From: Frankiaceae bacterium
Lineage (GTDB): Bacteria > Actinomycetota > Actinomycetes > JAFAQI01
Direction of reading: 5' to 3'
Assembly (NCBI GenBank): GCA_019239875.1
Contig: JAFAZI010000006.1
Span: forward strand, 1 to 33,768
DNA length: 33,768 nt
The notes under the pieces were generated by a model. It saw nothing but the letters and a program-made list of their open reading frames with translations. It ran no database searches and was not told the origin of the DNA. Below are positions 3,831-33,767 of this stretch, in pieces; the first letter of the stretch is position 1; each line of letters starts with the position of its first letter. Both the position numbers and the translations under genes were made by a program.

Positions 3831-6614
3831 ATGCTTGGCTCCGCCCCGCTGGAAGCCGTTCTAGGCTCCGGCATCGACAACACCGACCACGAAGCTGTCC
3901 GCGCGTTCATCCGCCAGGCTGCCGACCTCGGTCTGAACCTGCTGTTCATCTATCCCGGCTCCAAGGTGCCCGCCGACATGCGGACGGTCCGCCAGAAGAA
4001 GGCCGAGGACAAGGCCACCCAGGAGGCGGCGCGCGAGGCCGGTCGCCGCGACTGGGCCTCGCTGAAGTCGCCCGCCGGGCTGGCGCTGGCCACCTCGGAG
4101 AAGCCGGTCCTGGAGCGGTACCTGAAGCGCTACATCGAGGTCTACTCGACCTGGCACGACGCCGAGGGTAACGAGGTCGGCTGGACCAAGAAGGCAGCCG
4201 ACGAGGGCACCATCACGATGGTCACGCCCGCGCCCGTGAACCTCGCGGTGGAGGTCGGCGGCTCCGGCGTCGTGGTGATCGACTGCGATACCAAGGCCCA
4301 GATGGAGCGCTGGTTCGACGCCGCCGACCTGGACGATCCCGAGGACTGGCCCGCCCCGACGGTCGTCACGCCCGGCCACATGGGCGAGGGCGCGGACCCC
4401 GAGGACCCGAGCACCTGGAGCCACGCCGACGGCGGTCACTTCTGGTTCACCGTCCCCGATGAACTGATGCCCGTGCTGCCGCGCCACGTCGGCGCGATGA
4501 CCTGGGGCGGGGACAACGGGTTCGCCGTGCTCTGGGATCGCCGCTATGTGCTGATCCCGCCCTCGACCAGGCCGGAGGGTAGCTACGAGCAGCTGGGCCA
4601 CGTCTACGAGCTGCCCGACTGGCTGGCCGAGAAGATCATCGAGGCGGGCACCGCCCGCGCCCGGCGCGCCTTCGCCAACGACGGGAAAGCCGAGACCGAG
4701 AACAAGGAGCTGGCCGACCAGGTGGACGCCTGGGCGGCGAACGTCACCTGGGCCTCGCTGCTGGAGCCGCTGGGCTGGACCCAGCACCCGAGGACCGACA
4801 ACTGTGGTTGCACCGTCTGGACCGCGCCCGGCGATCACGCCTCGCCCAAGTCGGCCACCGCCCACGACACGGGTTGCTCCTCGGGGCGCTACACCGAGGT
4901 GAACGCGCCGCTGCATCTGTGGACCGACCACGACGCGCCGCCCTTCACCGACGGCATGGACGCCGAGACCTGGAGGCCGACGTTCTCCAAGCTCCAGGCG
5001 GTCGCGCTGATCAGCTACGGCGGCAACATCGCCAAGGCGATGGACGACATGGGCCTGATGCCGGACCTGGCCGTCGAGCCGGGCCTGGACCCCAAGGGTC
5101 CCGACGCCGATCTGGACAAGACCGGGGATGGTGACTTCCAGCTCCCGACCGACGTCCAGGTGACGATTACCGACGGGGAGCAGGACTTCTGCCAGGTCTG
5201 TGGCACCTCGGAGGGCGTGTTCGCCACCGACGACGACGGCTCGCTCTGGCACGCCAAGGACGAGGACGACGCCGCCGACACGGGCGGGCACCTGGCCAGC
5301 TCGGGCCTCGTCGTCGCGGGCAAGTCCGACCCCGACCCCGTGGAGGAGCGCGCCGCCGAGACCGAGGTGGACCTGAGCCTCGACGCGCTCCCCGCCGACT
5401 ACGGCAAGAAGCCCAAGGCCGAGAAGCCCGCCGCCTCGCCGTACCCCGACGCGGTGGAGGACCCAGACCCCGACGTGTTCGACTCCAAGCACACTGGCGT
5501 CCCGACGATCGCGCCGTTCTCGCACTGGCGCGACATGCCGCCGCCGGAGTTCATCATCGACGGGCTGCTGGAGCACGGCGGTTTGTCGTGCATCATCGGC
5601 CCGCCGGGGATCGGGAAGTCGAGCGTGGCCCTGGACATGGCCTGCCACATTGCCACCGGCAAGCGCTGGCAGGGTCGCCGGACACTCAAGACCCGCGTTC
5701 TGTACCTCCCCGGCGAGGGCCTGAGCGGTGCCGTTCAGCGCATCCGCGCCTGGGAGGCGGCGCACGACGTCCAGCTGGACAACGACCTGCTCCTGGGCAA
5801 CGGCATCATCCTGGTGAACGCTCAGAACGAGGCGTGGGGCGAGATTGCCGCCTACATCGCCCGGCAGAACATCGGCCTGGTCATCTTTGACACGTTCGCC
5901 CGCATGTCCGCCGGGCTGGAGGAGAACAGCGCCACCGACGTGGGGCGCGCCGTCCGCCGGTTCGACAAGCTCAAGGAGCTGACGAACGCGGGCGTGGCGG
6001 TGGTCCATCACACCGCCAAGCACGACCCCTCGACGGGGCGCGGCAGCTCGGCGCTGAACGGGGCGCTCGACTCCGAGCTGGTCGTTCGGGACGCGACCTG
6101 GGACGTGACCCAGATCGCCGACAGCGACGGGCGCGTGGCCGGGAAGCCGATCGAGGTCTGGACCTCCAAGCAGAAGAACGCCGAGCAGCTGGACAACGCC
6201 ATCCCGCTGCTGATGATCAACAGCCCGGCGGAGGGCGTGAAGGCTCCGCTGATCACCGGCCCGAACGGGGACGTGGACCCGATGCAGGGCGAGGTGGTCC
6301 TGGCCCGCGCGCTGCCCGAGCCGATCGTGGAGACCGCGATCAGGGTCGCGGAGTTCATCGCCACCCGGCCCGAGCAGGGCGCGACACGCGCCGAGGTCGC
6401 CGCCGCGATCGTGCCGGACGCCTACGCGCGCAGCCGCAACGACACGACCGCCTACTGGAAGCAGCGCATCGGCGAGGCGGTGGACCGTGGCCTCCGCTAC
6501 TCGCTGCTCCAGACGCTCACCGGGACGCCCTCGGGCGCTCGGTATATCCCCGGCGTCGGCACGCCGGAGGACGCGCGCACCGCTGCCGCCGCCGAGGTCA
6601 TCGACGGCGACTGA
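3831..6614 (+). CDS. Bifunctional primase-polymerase/AAA+ helicase fusion
   Basis: A 927-residue replication protein that probably makes primers and unwinds or loads at the fork. Residues ~25-260 form a prim-pol domain: GLNLLFIYPGSK (34-45), NLAVEVG followed by the metal-binding D151-C-D153, GGH203FWF, and the late RYVLIPPS strand (239-245). A Cys/His-containing segment follows (C325-x-C327, WTAPGDHASPKSATAH, C349), as seen in phage primase-helicases, then a second C454-x2-C457 with H474. An acidic disordered linker (~495-550) leads to a RepA/RecA-like ATPase: Walker A G590-PPGIGKSS598, Walker B VIFDTF (684-689, D687), and HHTAKHDPSTGRGSSAL (726-742) typical of RepA-type hexameric helicases. 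The C-terminus (~830-927) may be a winged helix. The ATG at 3831 follows the conserved leader. The stop overlaps an ATG at 6614. Confidence 0.93.
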   Translation: MLGSAPLEAVLGSGIDNTDHEAVRAFIRQAADLGLNLLFIYPGSKVPADMRTVRQKKAEDKATQEAAREAGRRDWASLKSPAGLALATSEKPVLERYLKRYIEVYSTWHDAEGNEVGWTKKAADEGTITMVTPAPVNLAVEVGGSGVVVIDCDTKAQMERWFDAADLDDPEDWPAPTVVTPGHMGEGADPEDPSTWSHADGGHFWFTVPDELMPVLPRHVGAMTWGGDNGFAVLWDRRYVLIPPSTRPEGSYEQLGHVYELPDWLAEKIIEAGTARARRAFANDGKAETENKELADQVDAWAANVTWASLLEPLGWTQHPRTDNCGCTVWTAPGDHASPKSATAHDTGCSSGRYTEVNAPLHLWTDHDAPPFTDGMDAETWRPTFSKLQAVALISYGGNIAKAMDDMGLMPDLAVEPGLDPKGPDADLDKTGDGDFQLPTDVQVTITDGEQDFCQVCGTSEGVFATDDDGSLWHAKDEDDAADTGGHLASSGLVVAGKSDPDPVEERAAETEVDLSLDALPADYGKKPKAEKPAASPYPDAVEDPDPDVFDSKHTGVPTIAPFSHWRDMPPPEFIIDGLLEHGGLSCIIGPPGIGKSSVALDMACHIATGKRWQGRRTLKTRVLYLPGEGLSGAVQRIRAWEAAHDVQLDNDLLLGNGIILVNAQNEAWGEIAAYIARQNIGLVIFDTFARMSAGLEENSATDVGRAVRRFDKLKELTNAGVAVVHHTAKHDPSTGRGSSALNGALDSELVVRDATWDVTQIADSDGRVAGKPIEVWTSKQKNAEQLDNAIPLLMINSPAEGVKAPLITGPNGDVDPMQGEVVLARALPEPIVETAIRVAEFIATRPEQGATRAEVAAAIVPDAYARSRNDTTAYWKQRIGEAVDRGLRYSLLQTLTGTPSGARYIPGVGTPEDARTAAAAEVIDGD

Positions 6615-6618
6615 TGGA

Positions 6619-6640
6619 CACAACCGACAAGGAGAACCGC
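6619..6640 (+). repeat. Start-associated sequence, copy 3
   Basis: CACAACCGACAAGGAGAACCGC lies directly before the ATG at 6641. The AAGGAG ribosome site is 6629-6634. This copy decides the start of the downstream gene, because an in-frame ATG at 6614 lies upstream of it and would make the leader coding. Confidence 0.6.
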
Positions 6641-17567: not shown

Positions 17568-17975
17568 TCAGCTGATGTAGTAGGTCGTGTTCGGGTCCTT
17601 GACGGCGAGGGCGGAGAACTGGGCGCTGGTCAGGTAGACCTTCTTGTCCTCGACCGGGTTCCCGGCGACGTCGTAGGCGGTGGATACTCCCAGGCCCGCC
17701 TTGGCAGCGGTCACGCTGTCGTCGGCCAGCTCGGGCGTGCCGACGGCTCCGGCCTTGATGTTCGCCGCCTCCACGCCATCGGTGGCGATCTCGACGGTGC
17801 CCACCGCGCCCGCGTGAATCTTCTCGCGCGTCACGCTGTCGTCGGCCAGTTCGGCGGTGTCCACCTCACCGACCTCCAGGCCGGGCGCTAGCTTCTCGAT
17901 CTCCGCGCGGAGGGCCGGGTCGAGCTTGGACCCCGGCGGCGCGGCGGTGTCCATCAGGACCGCGACAATGGCCAT
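17568..17975 (-). CDS. Small tail-fibre-like protein with repeat
   Basis: A 135-residue protein. The middle has a repeat typical of phage fibre shafts: ELADDSVTREKIHAGAVGT, then EIATDGVEAANIKAGAVGT, then ELADDSVTAAKAG, about 20 residues each. The C-terminus (YLTSAQFSALAVKDPNTTYYIS) matches the common end of fibre proteins, where Thr-Tyr pairs pack at the trimer tip. It probably forms a short trimeric fibre or adaptor for the following minor tail protein. The ATG at 17975 has no obvious ribosome site; on the - strand TACCCT lies seven bases upstream. An internal Met at residue 8 is an alternative start. Confidence 0.7.
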   Translation of the reverse strand: MAIVAVLMDTAAPPGSKLDPALRAEIEKLAPGLEVGEVDTAELADDSVTREKIHAGAVGTVEIATDGVEAANIKAGAVGTPELADDSVTAAKAGLGVSTAYDVAGNPVEDKKVYLTSAQFSALAVKDPNTTYYIS

Positions 17976-18012: not shown

Positions 18013-18327
18013 CTAGCCGCTACGTTGGGCGTTCAGGAATGCGTCGAACGACGCCTCCACCTCCTCGTCGGAGAACCCAGGCGGCGGTGGCTCGACCCCG
18101 CCGTTGATCTTCACCGTGATGGCGTCGGGCTTGTAGAGCTTGTCAAAGTAACTGGTGAGCTTCGCGCGGGCCTCGGCCTCGGTCTTGGCACCGTGGACGG
18201 CGCTCTCGGTGCCCAGCTGCTCGATCTCGTCCAGGACGATATGCATCGAGGGGACGTCGCGCATGATGCTGACGACGCCGTGGGAGGCGAACCGGACGCG
18301 CAGCGCCCGCCAGTTGTGAGCCGCCAT
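18013..18327 (-). CDS. Tail assembly chaperone, frameshifted C-terminal part (gpT-like)
   Basis: A 104-residue reading frame (ATG at 18327) most likely expressed as the tail of a longer chaperone after a -1 frameshift. The sequence fits the second frame of actinophage tail assembly chaperones: NWRALRVRF..HGVVSIMRDVPSMHIVLDEIE, and near the end GFSDEEVEASFDAFLNAQ. In the -1 frame upstream of the ATG the codons read PYSAVINLAL, which continues naturally from SARP in the first frame. Like lambda gpT it would recruit tail tube subunits to the gpG-tape measure complex. Stop of the first frame and this ATG overlap by one base, so separate translation is possible too. Confidence 0.8.
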   Translation of the reverse strand: MAAHNWRALRVRFASHGVVSIMRDVPSMHIVLDEIEQLGTESAVHGAKTEAEARAKLTSYFDKLYKPDAITVKINGGVEPPPPGFSDEEVEASFDAFLNAQRSG

Positions 18328-18695
18328 CAACGCGAGATTGATGACGGCACTGTAGGGCGCGCACTGCCCGCCGTTGCGATCGCCCGGCTGACGCGGAGAA
18401 CCGCGTCCTCGGGTAGGTCGGTCTCGGGGTCTAGCATCTTGGCCAGCAGGACCTCGTATTCGCCGGGCGCGAGGTGGTTCTGGATGAAGATGTTCAGGTA
18501 GTCGATCCGGCTCTGGCCGGAGACCTTGGAGTTCGCCGCCCCGGCCAGCGCCGGGATCGCGTTTGGCAGCGGTTTGCGGGCGTGGAGCACGCCGACGCCC
18601 TCCACCTCCAGCTCGCGGTAGTGGCGATCCTCGGGCGTGGGGAAGTCCTCAGCGTCCGATTCACAGTCGGGATAGCCAGGCGGTGGATCGTACAA
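18327..18695 (-). CDS. Tail assembly chaperone, N-terminal product (gpG-like)
   Basis: A 122-residue protein starting at a TTG with GGAGGG just upstream. Features shared with actinophage chaperones: ARKPLPNAIPALAGAANSK, then IDYLNIFIQNHLAPGEYEVLLAKMLDP and the end RVSRAIATAGSARP. Chaperones of this type coat the tape measure during tail assembly and are absent from the mature virion. Here the gene lies about 11.6 kb downstream of the tape measure on the same strand, with three paralogous structural genes before it; the usual position is immediately upstream of the tape measure. The final 9 residues (TVPSSISR region) are replaced in the frameshift product. Confidence 0.85.
   Translation of the reverse strand: MYDPPPGYPDCESDAEDFPTPEDRHYRELEVEGVGVLHARKPLPNAIPALAGAANSKVSGQSRIDYLNIFIQNHLAPGEYEVLLAKMLDPETDLPEDAVLRVSRAIATAGSARPTVPSSISR
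18354..18357 (-). other. Probable -1 programmed frameshift site
   Basis: In the first frame the message reads CGC CCT ACA. Slipping back one base at CCC-U (18357-18354) lets Pro re-pair with CCC and continues as TAC AGT GCC, giving SARP-YSAV, the junction expected for this family. It is not a classical XXXYYYZ heptamer; only the A-site Pro codon re-pairs well. The exact site is inferred from the protein join, not proven. Confidence 0.6.
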
Positions 18696-18723
18696 ATTGC
18701 CCTCCGAGGTCGGGAAACTGACC

Positions 18724-19482
18724 TCAGATTACCGGCACGGCGAACAGATCGAGGCGTAGCCCGCCGGTCTCGTAGCTGCTCTCAGTGCCCGAGGTGCCGC
18801 CGTCGATCTGGGTCGCCTCCCAGAACTCGCTCACGAAACGCAGCTCCGCGCGGGCGGTGATCGTGTCGCCGGGCGCGAGCTTGGCCCAGCCGGTCCGCTC
18901 CGGCGCGAGCGGGATCGTGCCGGACGGCTGGCGCTCCTCGATGATGCCGAACGAGGTATTCACTGCCAGCGTGCCCGAGCGGGCCATGTCCGCGCCGACG
19001 CCGAGCATCGAGGCGATCTCCAGGGGACCAGCGTTGCCGGGCGTGTTCAGCGAGTAGCCCGAGCGCAGCGTCAGCCCGCCGCGCGAGCGCGCCTGGAGGG
19101 TGACACGCTGCCCGCCGTGAGTGATCTTGCCGTAGACCCACTGAGGGATCGGGGAGCCGTTGGTCCACTCCAGCTGGAGCGAGTGGAGGAGGTCGTTCTT
19201 GTTCCCCTGGGCGCTGCCGTTGGGGTCGGCCTGGGCCAGGATGGACATCGCGCCGAACATGGTCGGCAGGCTCGACAGCATCCCTGAGAACAGGCTGCCG
19301 ATCGTGCCGAACACGTCGATCCCGCCGCCCAGCGGACCCGTGCTACCCGCGCGGTTGACCGCGTAGCTGCCCGAGCGCGAGGCCACCTCCGAGGACCGGA
19401 CCTGCCGCCACTGCATCCAGGGCTGAGGCCGGATCACGCCGTCCAGCTCCTCCAGATGGAGTTCGTCCACGCAATCGCTCAT
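18724..19482 (-). CDS. Virion protein, third tandem DUF7172-like paralogue
   Basis: A 252-residue probable minor tail/virion protein. It shares with its two upstream neighbours a strand pattern around LLHSLQLEWTNGSPIPQWVYGKIT and a C-terminal section PGDTITARAELRF..., LRLDLFAVPVI. It differs by an N-terminal extension with a hydrophobic stretch (~55-85, IDVFGTIGSLFSGMLSSLPTMFGAMSIL), which could be a membrane or oligomer contact. The ATG at 19482 overlaps the previous stop (ATGA). Related proteins occur beside minor tail genes in phages of Corynebacteriales; no function is known. Confidence 0.7.
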   Translation of the reverse strand: MSDCVDELHLEELDGVIRPQPWMQWRQVRSSEVASRSGSYAVNRAGSTGPLGGGIDVFGTIGSLFSGMLSSLPTMFGAMSILAQADPNGSAQGNKNDLLHSLQLEWTNGSPIPQWVYGKITHGGQRVTLQARSRGGLTLRSGYSLNTPGNAGPLEIASMLGVGADMARSGTLAVNTSFGIIEERQPSGTIPLAPERTGWAKLAPGDTITARAELRFVSEFWEATQIDGGTSGTESSYETGGLRLDLFAVPVI

Positions 19483-20087
19483 AGCGCGCCCACCGGCCCT
19501 CCCACCGCCACCAGGCGGGTCCATCGAGCGTAAGCCTCCCAGCGCGGCGTGATGTCAGAGTCCTTGCCGGGGATGATCCAGGTCCCCGGCGTCTGGACGG
19601 CGGCGAGGTAGCGGAAGTGAAACGACTGCATCGGCGGGACGACGCCGAGGTCCACCCAGGTCTGCTGGTCGTCGCCGTCCAAGAAGAAACGCCCGAACAG
19701 AAGGTCATCCGCCGCCGCGCTCGCGCGGTCGAGCTGGAGCCGCCCGCCGAACGTGTTCTGGATGACCGAGGGGAAGTCGGCGCTGGGCGACTTGCCGACG
19801 CGGTGGCTCCAGGCGTCGTGGATCACCACGGTGGCCGGTGACTGGGCGATGATCGAGCGCGGCGCGATGTGGACCAGCACCCAGACCCGAACGCGGTCCT
19901 TGCTGTTGTTGAACCAGGTCAGGTCGCCGTCGATCATGGTCACCGGGTCCGGCGACAGCTTCAGCTCGCCGTCCTTCTTGGACTCCAGGAATTGCTCGGC
20001 GACCACGCGCGGCAGCCAGTTGCGGCTGAGGCCGACGCCGTTGCTGTCGCTGATCATGTATTCAGCGGTGCAGATTTTGAGGCTCAT
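19479..20087 (-). CDS. Virion protein, second tandem DUF7172-like paralogue
   Basis: A 202-residue protein, the most diverged in length of the three. Core motif: MIDGDLTWFNNSKDRVRVWVLVHIAP, matching LIDRQVKWTNDSPVDHMIRAEIT of the first copy. A C-terminal part with aromatic-rich strands (FHFRYLAAVQTPGTW..., WTRLVAV) follows. The ATG at 20087 overlaps the previous stop by four bases; a longer reading to 20123 would overlap the neighbour needlessly. No signal peptide or membrane segment. Structural role inferred from the position in the tail operon and from its paralogues. Confidence 0.7.
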   Translation of the reverse strand: MSLKICTAEYMISDSNGVGLSRNWLPRVVAEQFLESKKDGELKLSPDPVTMIDGDLTWFNNSKDRVRVWVLVHIAPRSIIAQSPATVVIHDAWSHRVGKSPSADFPSVIQNTFGGRLQLDRASAAADDLLFGRFFLDGDDQQTWVDLGVVPPMQSFHFRYLAAVQTPGTWIIPGKDSDITPRWEAYARWTRLVAVGGPVGAL

Positions 20088-20728
20088 CCGGTCACCAGCT
20101 TGCCCTGAGCGGGGAAGGCCCACAACGCAATTCGGGCGTAACCGGCCTCAGCTTCGTGGGCGGGCGCGTTCTTGTTCGCGTTGTCGGAGAAGGGCGGCGG
20201 CGTCCAGACGTATTGCCGATACCAGAGCCGGATGGTCTCGCCCGGCGCGACCGGACCCAGCCACTCCTCGGTCGTGTTGGTTCCCCACCAATGCCAGAAC
20301 TTGCCCGGCTCCGGCTCGGCCACGCTGTTGGTCCCGATGTCTCCGGCGCTGCCGGTCTGGCCGTTCAGAATGCCCGAGGTGATCGGCTCCGCCGCCTCCA
20401 CGGGGTCGGTGTCCACGGGCGTGATCGCGCTCGACCAGCGATCGCGGAACTGGACGGCGTTCGGGTTCGACGTGACCCACCGCCGCCAGCGCCGGGTGAT
20501 CTCGGCGCGGATCATGTGGTCCACCGGGCTGTCGTTCGTCCACTTGACCTGCCGGTCTATCAGCAGAATGCCGGGCAGGGTGATGGTCTCGGTCAGCTTC
20601 GTGGTGTCGGCGCTGGAGCGCGCCACGACGTCCACGACGTTGCGCGGGACCGACCACGGCGCAAGCCGGAGCTTGCCGTCGCTGCCGATCTCCAGGTTCT
20701 CGGCAACGCATACGCTCGGGCTGGTCAC
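20084..20728 (-). CDS. Virion protein, first tandem DUF7172-like paralogue
   Basis: A 214-residue protein, closest of the three to the family type. It begins CVAENLEIGSDGKLRLAPWSVPR, then TLPGILLIDRQVKWTNDSPVDHM and RRWRRWVTSNPNAVQFRDRW, typical of DUF7172-type proteins in Gordonia, Rhodococcus and related phages. The C-terminus has PGETIRLWYRQYVW and a final beta strand. The opening AENLEIGSDGKL resembles the start of many beta-structured fibre proteins. GTG start at 20728; ribosome site weak. Likely on the tail tip or fibres, since it follows the fibre genes. Confidence 0.75.
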   Translation of the reverse strand: MTSPSVCVAENLEIGSDGKLRLAPWSVPRNVVDVVARSSADTTKLTETITLPGILLIDRQVKWTNDSPVDHMIRAEITRRWRRWVTSNPNAVQFRDRWSSAITPVDTDPVEAAEPITSGILNGQTGSAGDIGTNSVAEPEPGKFWHWWGTNTTEEWLGPVAPGETIRLWYRQYVWTPPPFSDNANKNAPAHEAEAGYARIALWAFPAQGKLVTG

Positions 20729-28826: not shown

Positions 28827-30263
28827 TCACGCCTCCCGGTCGGCCAGGCTCAGACTCACGTCGAACGAGGCGTCCCCGTCGGTCTGGGCGACGAATTGCC
28901 AGCAGAGCGCGCGGTCGAGCACCGCCGGACGCCACGGCGACCCCTTGGGCGTGCCGACGATCCCGAACGGTCGCCGACGCCGCCCCGCGTAGTTGACCCA
29001 GTAGCGCCCGCTCACGCCGTCCAGGACCAGCTCGGCGGTCGGCGGCAGGCCGGAGACCTGGATCGGCCAGCGCTCGATGAACTGGCCGTTCTTGTCGGCG
29101 GAGCACCGTTGCCAGTGAGCCTGGAGGGTCAGCCCTTGAGTGCCCGTGTTCGTGATCCGCACGGTGGCCACGGTCTCCGAGCAGCGGACCGGGTAGTCCA
29201 TCGTGGGCAGCTCATAGGTGTGAGTGACGATCGCGCAAACCGGGAGGCAGCCGCCGCAGACCGGCGGCGGTGAGGTCACCACGGTGATGGTCTCGGGCGG
29301 GCATTCTGTCGAGAACAGGCGCGGCTCATCGGGGCGCGGCTCGGTCTCGTCACAGTCGGTCGCGTGGACCCATCGGATCGGCTGGGTGGCGATCGTGTCC
29401 CACTCGACCGGCAGCTCCACGGGCGGGCTGTAGGCGTGCGGCAGCGTGGCCGTCAGCTCCCAGCTGACGCGGTACATCGTGGCCTGGCGGTTGCCGTGGT
29501 GGCCGGGGTTCACCGCGTCGTTGATCTGTGGCTCCTGGGTCATCACGACGCCGTGAACCTCGCGCACCAGCGAGGCGGGGTCGGCAGCCGAGGAGGCCGG
29601 GTGGGCGGCGAGGTAGCGGAGCGTGGAGTCGGTGCGGTCATTGGTCGCCCGCAGCTGGCAGGCGAGCCACTGGAGGCCATAGGTCAGCCCGGCATTGGAG
29701 CAGGCGATCAGGATCGCGTCGAACGTGATTTTGCGGCTGGCGTCACGGTGCGGACCGGCCACGCCGCCGTCGCCCGCGTTCTCGGTGATCTGGCGCTCGC
29801 TGGGCGCGGTGTCCAGGCCCTTGACCTCCATCACCCAGATGCCGCCGAACTCCGCGCTCTCGGGGACGCGGGTGGAGTACCAGGGCGACAGCTCGGGGCG
29901 GTAGATGTGGTCCGCCAGGAACTCCGCCAGCCCGTCCCAGCTGTCGTCGTAGCCGATCCACTGGCGGCAGCCGAAACAGAGGTTATCCGGCGTCCAGCAC
30001 TCGCCGACCTCGGCCAGGCCCGGCCCGTAGAGCCGCGAGCCGTCCGGCACGGTGGCCAGCAGCCGCCCGGCGGCGATCGGTACCGACGAGGGCGGAACGG
30101 TCGCCAGGAGCGAGCCTGGGGCGGTGGGAACCATCGAGCAGTCGCCGCCCGCCCGCATGATCCCGACGTCGGTCGTCGGAATGTCCGCGCCGACGTGAGC
30201 GACCACGCGCGAGCTGTTGGCGATCTCGACCCCGTTCAGGGCGAAGTAGCCTCGGAACGCCAC
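28827..30263 (-). CDS. Dit-like minor tail protein
   Basis: A 478-residue protein first after the tape measure, the expected place for the distal tail protein that caps the tube and anchors the hub. The start MAFRGYFALNGVEIANSSR and the central part (RKITFDAILIACSNAGLTYGLQWL, YRVSWELTATLPHAYSPP) fit actinophage minor tail/Dit-like proteins. A Cys-rich segment (CPPETITVV..., C336-GG-C339-LPV-C343) may be a metal site or disulphide cluster. A short internal duplication occurs at residues 50-76 (GSLLATVPPSS / GRLLATVPDGS). Translation starts at a GTG with a very strong AAGGAGG site that overlaps the tape measure stop codon. Confidence 0.85.
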   Translation of the reverse strand: MAFRGYFALNGVEIANSSRVVAHVGADIPTTDVGIMRAGGDCSMVPTAPGSLLATVPPSSVPIAAGRLLATVPDGSRLYGPGLAEVGECWTPDNLCFGCRQWIGYDDSWDGLAEFLADHIYRPELSPWYSTRVPESAEFGGIWVMEVKGLDTAPSERQITENAGDGGVAGPHRDASRKITFDAILIACSNAGLTYGLQWLACQLRATNDRTDSTLRYLAAHPASSAADPASLVREVHGVVMTQEPQINDAVNPGHHGNRQATMYRVSWELTATLPHAYSPPVELPVEWDTIATQPIRWVHATDCDETEPRPDEPRLFSTECPPETITVVTSPPPVCGGCLPVCAIVTHTYELPTMDYPVRCSETVATVRITNTGTQGLTLQAHWQRCSADKNGQFIERWPIQVSGLPPTAELVLDGVSGRYWVNYAGRRRRPFGIVGTPKGSPWRPAVLDRALCWQFVAQTDGDASFDVSLSLADREA

Positions 30264-30272
30264 CGGGCCTCC

Positions 30273-33200
30273 TTACGGCATCAGCTTGAGCAGTCGGTCC
30301 TGGACCTGGTTGGCAGTTTCCCGCCCACCGATCACTGTAATGGGAGCGTTGACCGTTTTGCTGCCACCGCTGCCGAACCCGCCGCGCTCCAGCGCCGACA
30401 CGAAGCGCGAGAACAGGTCGGTCTCGACCGGCGACAAGACCAGCTCATCGCCCATGCTGGCCTTGGGCAGGAACCCCTGACCCTCGGCCATGCCGCCGTC
30501 GTCAAACAGGGAGCCGCCGGTCAGCCCGCCGAACAGCGCGTCCCCTGGGATCATCGTCGCCGCGCCGCCGAACGTGCCGCCGAGCAGCCCGGCGAAGATC
30601 GCCATAATGCCGCCGATCAGCGCGCCCATGAAGCCGCCCGCCGGATCGAACAGGTTCGCCAGAATGCCACCGCCGAACACCGCCGTCATCTGGTCGCCGA
30701 ACTGGGACATCAGGCCCTCGCCCACCATATTGATGATGGTCTCCGACATGGCCAGCGCGAAGTCGGTCCCGACCTCGGCGGCGATGTCCACGCCTGCCGA
30801 ACCGGCGGAGCTGATGACCGAGGACACGATGCCGCCAGCCGGGCCACCGCCCGCGCCCGCGATCGACGCGCCAGCAGCGCTCGCGCCCGCCTGGATCAGG
30901 GAGTTTGCCACCGCCTTGGCGATCGGGACGATGACCTTCTCGATCAGATACTTGATGATCGCCTGGATGACGATCTTCAGGATGCGAATGCGCTCGGCGG
31001 CGGCGGTCTCGGTACTGGTGGAGGAGCGCTCGATCAGGCCGGACGTGTCGTTCAGCAGTCGGCCCTGGGCGTCGAACGCCTTAAAGGCGTCACCTCGGAA
31101 CGATCGGAAGTCGTCCGACATTTCCACCATCGTGTCGCGGGCCTCGATGTCCACGCCGATCATCTTCAGCAGCACGCGGATCAGCAGGTTGACGATCGTG
31201 CCGATGATCGGGACCTCGGAGACCCCGAAGAACTCCGCGCCCACGACGTCGTTCACGTTCACGCCGCCGCCCGTGGCCATGTGGCGGATGCCGCCGCGCT
31301 TCTCCAGGGCGCGCCGGAAGTGCTCCACGCCGCTGATCCCGCCCATGCGGCTCACGTCGCCCTTGTCCAGGACAAACTCGCCCTGCTGGGCCAGGATCGG
31401 AACGCTGTCCTTACCGGGGATGCCGCCCCAGATCGCGCCGCCGGAGGCGAACAGCCCGCCCGCGATGGTGCTCGCCGGAGCCGCCATCTGGCTGCCAAGC
31501 GTGCCGCCCGTGGACGCCGCGCCCGAGGAGTTCACCGGCAGCTGGGCCACCGCGCTGCTCACCGCGTCGGCGATCGGCGGCGCGGCGGCGGTGCCAAGGC
31601 CCTGACCGATCGACTGGGTAACGCTGTCCTTCAGGCCCTCCAGGGCGTTCTGGACGCCCGCCTTCAGCGTCGGCTCCAGCGCCTCCTTGTTCAGCTTGTC
31701 GGACATCTGGGTGATGACGTCCACGATCTGATCGCGCATCGCCATCAGCTGGGCGTTGAGGCTGGTCATGGTGCGATCCATCAGCCCGGCGGTGTCGGAG
31801 AACAGCCGCCCGGTGGCGTCGAACCCGCCCGCCTGCTGAATGTTGGGCGCGCCGATGCCGCCCTCCCGCGTGAAGTCCTCGACGTGGAACCCGAGCGCGG
31901 CGGCGAGCGCCATCGGGTTCTGCTCGCCCACCAGGTCGCCGAGCGTGGCGTCAGGACGACGCTGGCCGTCGGGCGTGGTGAACGCGCCCGTCATCGCGCC
32001 GCCCAGATCGCCGATCACGTTCTGGGCAGCCTCGGAGCCGCCGGAGGCCAGCCCGTCCAGGAGTGGCTTGGCCAGCGGGCTGAGACCGCCGCCGCCCATG
32101 TTCACGACGTAGACCGGCGTTGCGCCGCCGTACTGGGCCGAGCTGCCGCCCAGCCCGCCGGTCATCCCAGGCGAGGCCAGGCCCGCGTTCGTGAACTGTT
32201 GGACGCCATCGAGGAGCTGGGCGTGAATGTGGTTGTAGTGGTCCTTCTGCTGCCAGAGCGTGCCGCTGGTGTCGATCCCGAGCTGGCTCGCGTTCGCCAT
32301 CAGGAACGAGTAAATCTGGTCGCCGAGGACCTTCGCGTCCGGCGGCGTCGGGTCATTCCCACCAGCCGCGCCGGGGATCATAATGTCGAGCGCCCGCCCG
32401 CTCGGGTGGTACGGCAGCGAGTCGGGCCGGACCCCGCCAATGTTCTTGATCTGGGGGAACGTGGACTCGATGACCTGGAGGAGGTTCTGGGCGGCGGGCT
32501 GGAGACCCTGCTGGCCGGTGACCGTGGTCCCGCCGGGCGTGGCCAGCGGGTAGGTCGTGGCGGTCGGAATCTGGCCGGAGCCGAGGAGCGCCTGGGCCTG
32601 GGCGGCGAACTGGTTGTAGTTCGACCCTGGGTAGCCGCCGCGCTCGATCCGGTCGGCGAAGAAGTTCAGCGGGTCGGCGTTCGCCGCCGCCGGGCCACCC
32701 TGGCGCGCCATCTCACCGAGGAGCCACTGAATCTGGGAAGCCGGATCGGAGCCGACGCCCTTGTCCGCCGAGGTCTGGAACAGGCTGTTATGCCCGGCGT
32801 TCATCGCCGAGGTGGACAGGCCCGACTCCAGCAGCGCCGCCTGGACCGCCGCCTGGCCGACCGCCGGGGAATAGCCCTGGCTGGTCACGGCGGCGTAGAT
32901 CGCGCGAGCGATGCTGCCCTGGTCGGTGCCCATCGCCACGCCGCCGACCGGCGTACCGGGCGCGGTGCCGGGGATAGCGCCCTTCTTCATCGAGGAGTCG
33001 CGGAAGCTCTGAAGCGACTTGATCAGCGAGGAGTTCTGCTCATCCAGGACGCCCGTGTAGCCGCCCGTGACGACCTGGGTCACCAGGTCGCTGATCGCCT
33101 GGTCGTCCAGCCCGCCCTTCTTCTTGTTCCGAGCCGACGTGATCGCGGTGATGACGGGGGAGTTCGCGTTCAGCCCGAGGCCCGCGACGTCGGCGAGGTT

Positions 33201-33767
33201 GCCGCTCAGCGCGAACTTGCTCAGCGAGGCGGCGATGGCGGCGAAGTCCACGCCCGCGCCGGGCAGAGCGGTGCCGCCCGCCGCCCCAGGAGCGCCGGAG
33301 GCGAACGAAGTCTGAGGCTTGTACGTCGTGGGGTCGGAGCCGATGATGGTCTCCGCGTCGAACCCCAGGGCCTCCAGCGCGCCCTTGGCGGCGTCATAGG
33401 CGCGGTTCTTCTTCTTGAGCGGGGTCCCGAACGGGCCGATCTCCTGCCCGGCGTCGGCGGCGTTGCTGACCGCCGTGGACATGGAGGCGGTGTTCGTCGC
33501 CGTCGCGTTCAGCGGCGCGGAGGTCCCGCCCTTGCCCGCGAGCAGGTCCCGAATCTGCTTCAGGACGTCCAGCTCGGACTCCGGCCCTGGCGGCAGGCCG
33601 GGGAGGATCGGGGTCCCGTCAGGGTTCACGCCGCCGTCGGCGTAGAACCGGGTGGACAGGTTGCGGCGGAACCGGGAGTTCAGCGCGTAGACGCCCGGCG
33701 CGCCGCCCAGCCCACGCACCGCCTCGGGGATCAGCACGCCCTCGCCGGGAGCCAGGACGGCGTTCAC
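30273..33767 (-). CDS. Tape measure protein, C-terminal part (gene continues past window)
   Basis: At least 1164 residues; the frame is open to the right edge, so the start and N-terminal part lie outside. It sets tail length and enters the host with the DNA. Near the visible start LAPGEGVLIPEAVRGLG (5-21) is a typical tape measure segment. Residues ~280-395 resemble a lytic transglycosylase/lysozyme-like domain (YSPAVGQAAVQAALLE314SG, FFADRIERGGYPGS). Residues ~425-520 resemble an M15-type metallopeptidase: H454-PSGRALD461, then H513-I-H515. The rest is Gly/Ala-rich helix, with hydrophobic segments (~930-1090, IRILKIVIQAIIKYLIEKVIVPIAK and GFMGALIGGIMAIFAGLLGG) that may form a membrane channel. 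Ends in TVIGGRETANQVQDRLLKLMP. Confidence 0.93.
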   Translation of the reverse strand: MNAVLAPGEGVLIPEAVRGLGGAPGVYALNSRFRRNLSTRFYADGGVNPDGTPILPGLPPGPESELDVLKQIRDLLAGKGGTSAPLNATATNTASMSTAVSNAADAGQEIGPFGTPLKKKNRAYDAAKGALEALGFDAETIIGSDPTTYKPQTSFASGAPGAAGGTALPGAGVDFAAIAASLSKFALSGNLADVAGLGLNANSPVITAITSARNKKKGGLDDQAISDLVTQVVTGGYTGVLDEQNSSLIKSLQSFRDSSMKKGAIPGTAPGTPVGGVAMGTDQGSIARAIYAAVTSQGYSPAVGQAAVQAALLESGLSTSAMNAGHNSLFQTSADKGVGSDPASQIQWLLGEMARQGGPAAANADPLNFFADRIERGGYPGSNYNQFAAQAQALLGSGQIPTATTYPLATPGGTTVTGQQGLQPAAQNLLQVIESTFPQIKNIGGVRPDSLPYHPSGRALDIMIPGAAGGNDPTPPDAKVLGDQIYSFLMANASQLGIDTSGTLWQQKDHYNHIHAQLLDGVQQFTNAGLASPGMTGGLGGSSAQYGGATPVYVVNMGGGGLSPLAKPLLDGLASGGSEAAQNVIGDLGGAMTGAFTTPDGQRRPDATLGDLVGEQNPMALAAALGFHVEDFTREGGIGAPNIQQAGGFDATGRLFSDTAGLMDRTMTSLNAQLMAMRDQIVDVITQMSDKLNKEALEPTLKAGVQNALEGLKDSVTQSIGQGLGTAAAPPIADAVSSAVAQLPVNSSGAASTGGTLGSQMAAPASTIAGGLFASGGAIWGGIPGKDSVPILAQQGEFVLDKGDVSRMGGISGVEHFRRALEKRGGIRHMATGGGVNVNDVVGAEFFGVSEVPIIGTIVNLLIRVLLKMIGVDIEARDTMVEMSDDFRSFRGDAFKAFDAQGRLLNDTSGLIERSSTSTETAAAERIRILKIVIQAIIKYLIEKVIVPIAKAVANSLIQAGASAAGASIAGAGGGPAGGIVSSVISSAGSAGVDIAAEVGTDFALAMSETIINMVGEGLMSQFGDQMTAVFGGGILANLFDPAGGFMGALIGGIMAIFAGLLGGTFGGAATMIPGDALFGGLTGGSLFDDGGMAEGQGFLPKASMGDELVLSPVETDLFSRFVSALERGGFGSGGSKTVNAPITVIGGRETANQVQDRLLKLMP

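Follow-up and report, generated by a model that had tools for sequence, protein, structure and literature searches.

A probable lambda G/GT-type tail assembly chaperone locus with a -1 frameshift, located away from the tape measure gene in a group of actinophages

The slip sequence of the phage lambda tail assembly chaperone (TAC) locus is GGGAAAG. The short product of this locus, gpG, coats the tape measure protein, and the T domain of the frameshifted product gpGT recruits the major tail protein (PMC5009743). Programmed-frameshift TACs are also known in other mycobacteriophage clusters, for example cluster A (First gp24/gp25; PMC3585329) and F1 (Karhdo; PMC10793310), and TACs of T4-like phages are made without frameshifting (Vladimirov 2022, as cited in PMC12859696). 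Cluster B phages have repeatedly been described as devoid of the frameshift: a B1 phage was reported without it (PMC10793310), it was not found in three other B1 phages (PMC12352053), nor in the B2 phage Holeinone (PMC6544185), nor in the tail chaperone gp23 of B4 members (PMC8248883). In Gordonia phages of cluster DJ the authors found no TAC and raised the possibility of an atypical location (PMC12859696).

The window, that is, the whole stretch of 33,768 nucleotides analysed here, contains two overlapping frames (18327-18695 and 18013-18327) with the peptides APGEYEVLL, RAIATAGSARP, NWRALRVRF and EASFDAF, on which the initial annotation had based its proposal of a displaced tail chaperone pair. 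The elements of the pair are as follows.

18700..18705, minus strand: ribosome-binding site GGAGGG of ORF1, 4 nt 5' of the TTG start (direct sequence reading)
18327..18695, minus strand: ORF1, G-type TAC (Pfam PF23781 Phage_TAC_16; phrog_915; BFVD fold match)
18354..18359, minus strand: slip site CGC CCT, followed by ACA, kept in frame in all two-ORF rows of the alignment
18320..18348, minus strand: candidate stimulatory stem-loop of 12 bp beginning 5 nt 3' of the CCU codon (fold z -2.6; covariation)
18013..18354, minus strand: ORF2, T extension of 113 aa, read in the -1 frame from TAC (YSAVINLALMAAHNW...; PF23888; phrog_941)
18325..18327, minus strand: ATG in the -1 frame overlapping the ORF1 stop codon (TGATG), the start implied by most public annotations

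The pair has in common with lambda gpG/gpGT the overlapping ORFs, the predicted -1 frameshift near the end of G and an expected low-abundance GT with a C-terminal T, the likeness to gpG/gpT being one of layout and not of direct sequence comparison. It differs from lambda in that it lies away from the tape measure gene, where a second G paralogue occupies the usual place, and in that the slip site is CCCUACN, followed by a covarying hairpin. The TACs of First and Karhdo are likewise G/GT pairs produced through a programmed frameshift; unlike the displaced pair, they occupy the canonical position on the 5' side of the tape measure gene.

The ORF1 product has 122 aa, starts from TTG (M/L-YDPPPGYPD...) and ends in frame 0 with ...GSARPTVPSSISR. 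It matches Pfam PF23781 over profile positions 1-114 of 114 with 144 bits and E 2.2e-42, the curated cut-off being 27 bits. Among PHROG profiles it matches phrog_915 and, more weakly, phrog_1118 ("tail assembly chaperone"). The AlphaFold model of ORF1 (mean pLDDT 70) retrieved named TACs from the viral structure library BFVD at probability 1.00 and E 0.004-0.008, ranked behind close relatives (E 1e-7). In a fold search of the PDB, the HK97 TAC 2ob9 ranked first with a non-significant E of 0.8, and sequence-profile searches of the PDB with G and with T gave no match. The displaced G matches TACs by profile and, in BFVD, by predicted fold. PHROG 915 and 941, the families of the displaced copy, have no assigned function, PHROG 1118 is by profile score the family of the canonical copy, and PF23781 lumps both paralogues.

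The open frame of ORF2 spans positions 18013-18330 of the minus strand. Its product matches PF23888 (DUF7240, which Pfam does not label as T) with 141.6 bits and E 1.3e-41, far above the curated cut-off of 27 bits, which is also passed by the T sequences of NTR1, SPI1, Mao1 and StAugustine. The T domains of Nocardia NTR1 (L036:20219-20509) and Skermania SPI1 (L046:20423-20713), both associated with the slip sequence CCCTTTT, are shorter. ORF1 matches the first half of the 233-position profile phrog_941 and ORF2 aligns to its positions 118-227, so this family probably already holds fused G-T proteins. The T model is mostly helical (pLDDT 78), and a fold search with it found no significant structural relative. 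Joining of ORF1 and ORF2 by a -1 shift at the CCT codon (18354-18356) gives a product of 227 aa with the predicted junction ...TAGSARP/YSAVINLALMAAHNW... and the predicted peptide SARPYSAVINLALM across it. A free ORF2 protein started at the overlapping ATG would begin with MAAHNW..., a start codon that is not needed under the frameshift reading.

The slip site was analysed in 41 two-ORF rows from 39 distinct sources (28 non-redundant at 93%). ORF2 overlaps the end of ORF1 in the -1 frame, and the overlap carries a conserved slippery sequence, CGCCCT[AT][CT], in frame at the junction in 41 of 41 rows. The slip is predicted from the ability of tRNA-Pro paired with CCU to move back by one base and pair with CCC. 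The canonical X_XXY_YYZ heptamer, in the form CCCTTTT, is found only in NTR1 and SPI1; the remaining rows carry CCCTAC, where good re-pairing is limited to the proline tRNA, so that no full X_XXY_YYZ is formed (CCCUACN). The fixed CCT codon was not counted by itself as proof of slippage, since its third base is also set by the first base of the -1 codon. In pairwise counts, whose events are not independent, the ratio of synonymous to non-synonymous changes in frame 0 is 1717/477 upstream of the slip site; downstream of it, counts of the same non-independent kind are 593/266 for frame -1, 572/628 for frame 0 and 53/1166 for frame +1. Protein-level selection thus passes to the ORF2 frame exactly at the slip site. 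The frame-0 tail beyond this point is variable and ends at differing positions, in some phages right after ARPT. In Taptic, TPA2, NTR1 and SPI1 the -1 frame has no ATG, GTG or TTG among its first 14 codons.

The 26 rows with CCCTAC share a hairpin that begins 5 nt past CCT and has at most 12 bp. In these rows 94.6% of the cells are paired, and 8 of the 12 pairs have changes on both sides. The covariation score is 0.369 as compared with 0.136 in shuffled alignments (0 of 500 shuffles reach the observed value), and does not exceed 0.102 when the partner strand is slid. Synonymous recoding of ORF2 in the CCCTAC rows usually yields weaker folds (z from -1.3 to -2.9, single sequences not always being significant). 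At the junction of the two phages with the canonical CCCUUUU the hairpin is absent (NTR1) or replaced by a different fold (SPI1).

Two Mycobacterium phages, Mao1 and StAugustine, and the uncultivated virus L007 encode the pair as one uninterrupted reading frame (222-232 aa), with PF23781 followed in line by PF23888. The fusion thus occurs in at least three genomes, two of them cultured isolates and one a UViG; an assembly error could account for the latter taken by itself, but is improbable for the isolates as a set. A single gene of 232 aa occupies this place in Sejanus. The fusion junction in Mao1, StAugustine and L007 is ARP-Y, encoded by CGC CCC TAC, CGC CCA TAC and AGG CCC TAC, respectively. 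The fusions show that the joined product is one functional form, and they pin its junction. Fused loci should yield GT only, G then coming from the canonical copy unless a reverse slip takes place. The hairpin is retained in the fused genes of Mao1 and L007, and no perfect hairpin is present in StAugustine. In Mao1 (L034:20001-20699) and L007 (10001-10666) a +1 slip from CCC to CCU would hit an early stop, as if a reverse shift made G. StAugustine, a 101-kb phage (L051:3961-4653, L052:112-804), also has the two-TAC layout with the displaced copy fused. As in T4-like phages, the short and the long TAC in Mao1 and StAugustine need not share one frameshifting gene; T4-like phages are myoviruses, and the relation is by analogy only.

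The genes surrounding the pair in the window are the following.

17568..17975, minus strand: tail-fibre or tail-tip domain protein directly 3' of the pair (phrog_892 tail fibre; Pfam Phage_tail_C)
18724..20728, minus strand: three tandem overlapping paralogues directly 5' of the pair (phrog_282 / DUF7172)
30273..33767, minus strand: 3' part of the tape measure gene (phrog_934, 1237 bits)

As the initial annotation had stated, the tape measure gene is upstream on the same strand, its 3' part being about 11.6 kb from the pair; the pair thus lies about 12 kb 3' of the tape measure and not at the canonical TAC position immediately 5' of it. By tblastn, 496 phage records encode the pair: 468 from Mycobacterium, 20 from Gordonia and small numbers from Mycolicibacterium, Tsukamurella, Rhodococcus, Nocardia and Skermania. 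The carriers, about 495 Bclasvirinae and related actinophages, have it at the same relative place; in the isolates that were opened it comes after the minor tail genes, adjoins the tail-fibre genes and precedes lysin A. The gene order of the window, being that of the isolates, is therefore normal for the group and not a rearrangement private to this contig. All records with annotation listed for this locus label the pair "hypothetical protein"; in Lego3393 there is no joined annotation, and ORF2 is simply unannotated. GU580941, taken at first for a relative, turned out to be ReqiPepy6, and its gene order does not resemble that of the group. A DUF7240 search of 395 genomes of the same bacterial class found only the window's own contig and hence gave no prophage context; the phage contigs may represent an infecting virus binned with the genome and not a prophage of the lineage. 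A plasmid search gave no match. Very long frames antisense to the tape measure gene (29364-33767, plus strand) and to another long gene (3861-6623, minus strand) are expected from high G+C codon bias rather than as genes.

The right end of the window falls inside the tape measure gene, and the 5' side of this gene lies on another contig (C26, L038), found in the same assembly by a search with the canonical TAC of phage Giraffe. The right end of C26 repeats the window's final 147 bases without a mismatch, and the reading frame of the tape measure stays open across this overlap; in this assembly of 206 contigs, the join rests on the exact 147-base overlap and synteny. C26 encodes a TAC directly 5' of the tape measure, ending at position 6482 (PF23781, 136 bits). 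No T extension was found for this gene, the other frames ending 32 and 19 nt past its stop codon, nor for the canonical TACs of 12 relatives, where the frames end within 101 nt past the stop and contain no conserved sequence. The canonical position is therefore occupied by a paralogous TAC in the virus of the window and in these 12 relatives, which speaks against a simple rearrangement of the tail operon, one of the two explanations initially offered, and bears out the second chaperone of the other, whose suggested role in fibre assembly may or may not apply. What lies upstream of the tape measure is a single TAC gene: it is neither part of a pair nor followed by T. In the same region, the label "tail assembly chaperone" is attached to genes that stand two positions 5' of the tape measure gene (L002:20711-21127, Saguaro gp26; L003:18384-18806, Giraffe gp25; and equivalents) but belong by profile to PHROG 5 (tail completion / Neck1) and not to TAC. 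The gene after them, in many cases annotated as hypothetical, is the real canonical TAC, and the label on the PHROG 5 genes is likely a propagated mis-annotation.

Alignment of the displaced G profile (23 sequences) with that of the canonical gene (13 sequences) by hhalign gave a probability of 98.8 and E 6.7e-17. Maximum-likelihood analysis of 13 phages that have both copies placed these on either side of one branch with 98/96 support; this branch was recovered in 99% of bootstraps and in 0 of 500 shuffles. The two-clade topology indicates that the duplication is ancestral, older than the divergence of the group's Mycobacterium, Gordonia, Tsukamurella, Nocardia and Skermania phages. The copies also co-occur: at E 0.001 the canonical one was found in 493 records and the displaced one in 494 (494-496 over the searches), with nearly equal counts by genus.

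Starting from the observed homology, frameshift signal, conservation, paralogy and co-occurrence, we consider it probable that the displaced pair is a lambda G/GT-type TAC locus with a -1 frameshift, a diverged copy from an ancient duplication, and that both copies act in tube building. On the best reading, the TAC system is split: one copy, at the tape measure, gives G only, and the other, past the tail-tip genes, gives G and, by frameshifting, GT. Most ribosomes would produce the short G protein from the displaced locus, and some would slip by -1 at CGC-CCU-AC, aided by the hairpin 5 nt downstream, to make the 227-aa GT. The canonical copy would stay 5' of the tape measure and make G only, its T having been lost or never present. 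Most likely, by analogy with lambda, the canonical G together with the displaced G would coat the tape measure, and the displaced GT would contribute the T domain, through which the major tail protein is recruited. We infer that slippage proceeds at a useful rate and that labour on the tape measure is divided in this way.

The main competing explanation accepts the second frameshifting TAC as real and assigns it another client, the adjacent tail-tip and fibre proteins (the phrog_282 trio, the Phage_tail_C protein and a phrog_1304 minor tail protein). Such a client is possible because the pair adjoins tail-tip genes and not those of the tape measure or major tail protein; it always occurs at the tail-tip end of the operon, between phrog_282 and the fibre genes or, in Taptic, just past them, and the tape measure already has a complete G copy. 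However, the canonical copy has no T, so that without the displaced GT there would be no domain of the kind that binds the tube protein in lambda, and the two copies co-occur almost one to one. We regard this possibility as less likely than the tube role, with a minor but real chance of being right.

The remaining explanations fare considerably worse. Independent translation of ORF1 and ORF2, with ORF2 started by coupling, could draw on the TGATG or TAATG overlap and its ATG, kept in the window and in most cluster B members, but four lineages have no start codon there, the -1 frame is already conserved 5' of the ATG, the ATG has no Shine-Dalgarno sequence, and the first helix of the T model is predicted to start ahead of it. 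Together with the in-frame fusions and the covarying hairpin after an invariant slip motif, the missing start codons led us to reject this scheme as very improbable. Still less credible is a functionless relic: a duplicate in an unusual place might suggest one, but about 495 records retain the copy, both of its frames are under strong purifying selection, and its RNA element covaries. Since the window is a fragment, one of the 206 contigs of its assembly, displacement might reflect misassembly of a metagenome; this was rejected with near certainty, as the same order is found in the finished isolates Saguaro, Giraffe, Rhinoforte, Bernardo, MossRose, TPA2 and others. Of the claims made initially, the chaperone nature of both frames is borne out by their profile matches, and the displacement of about 12 kb recurs across the group; a full pair upstream of the tape measure, which together with the lack of a structural match would have spoken against the proposal, was not encountered, the upstream gene being single and the displaced G resembling known TACs.

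The position of the frameshifting copy, about 12 kb from the expected place, and its label "hypothetical" explain the reports of no frameshift in cluster B. A literature search found no paper naming the pair; subscription journals were mostly outside this search, and earlier recognition is possible. The frameshift predictor PRFect gave 79 joined "hypothetical" genes and many unjoined predictions (PMC10274946), among which the cluster B pair may be present. Few phages have been sampled as heavily as the cluster B mycobacteriophages, and these have a predicted frameshift after all, in an unexpected place and with a sequence-supported RNA element. Two "hypothetical" genes can thereby be named in about 500 genomes, and the usual annotation rule, to search just 5' of the tape measure, is corrected; Gordonia cluster DJ is an obvious group in which a displaced TAC may be sought. 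The natural in-frame fusions make the role of the G:GT ratio directly testable. It seems somewhat more probable than the contrary that tail length in these phages is controlled with two ancient paralogous chaperones, a G-only protein encoded at the tape measure and a separate frameshifted GT (in some lineages GT only) encoded late in the operon; gene position together with frameshift efficiency would then determine how much G and GT is made, or the paralogues would chaperone different parts of the tail.
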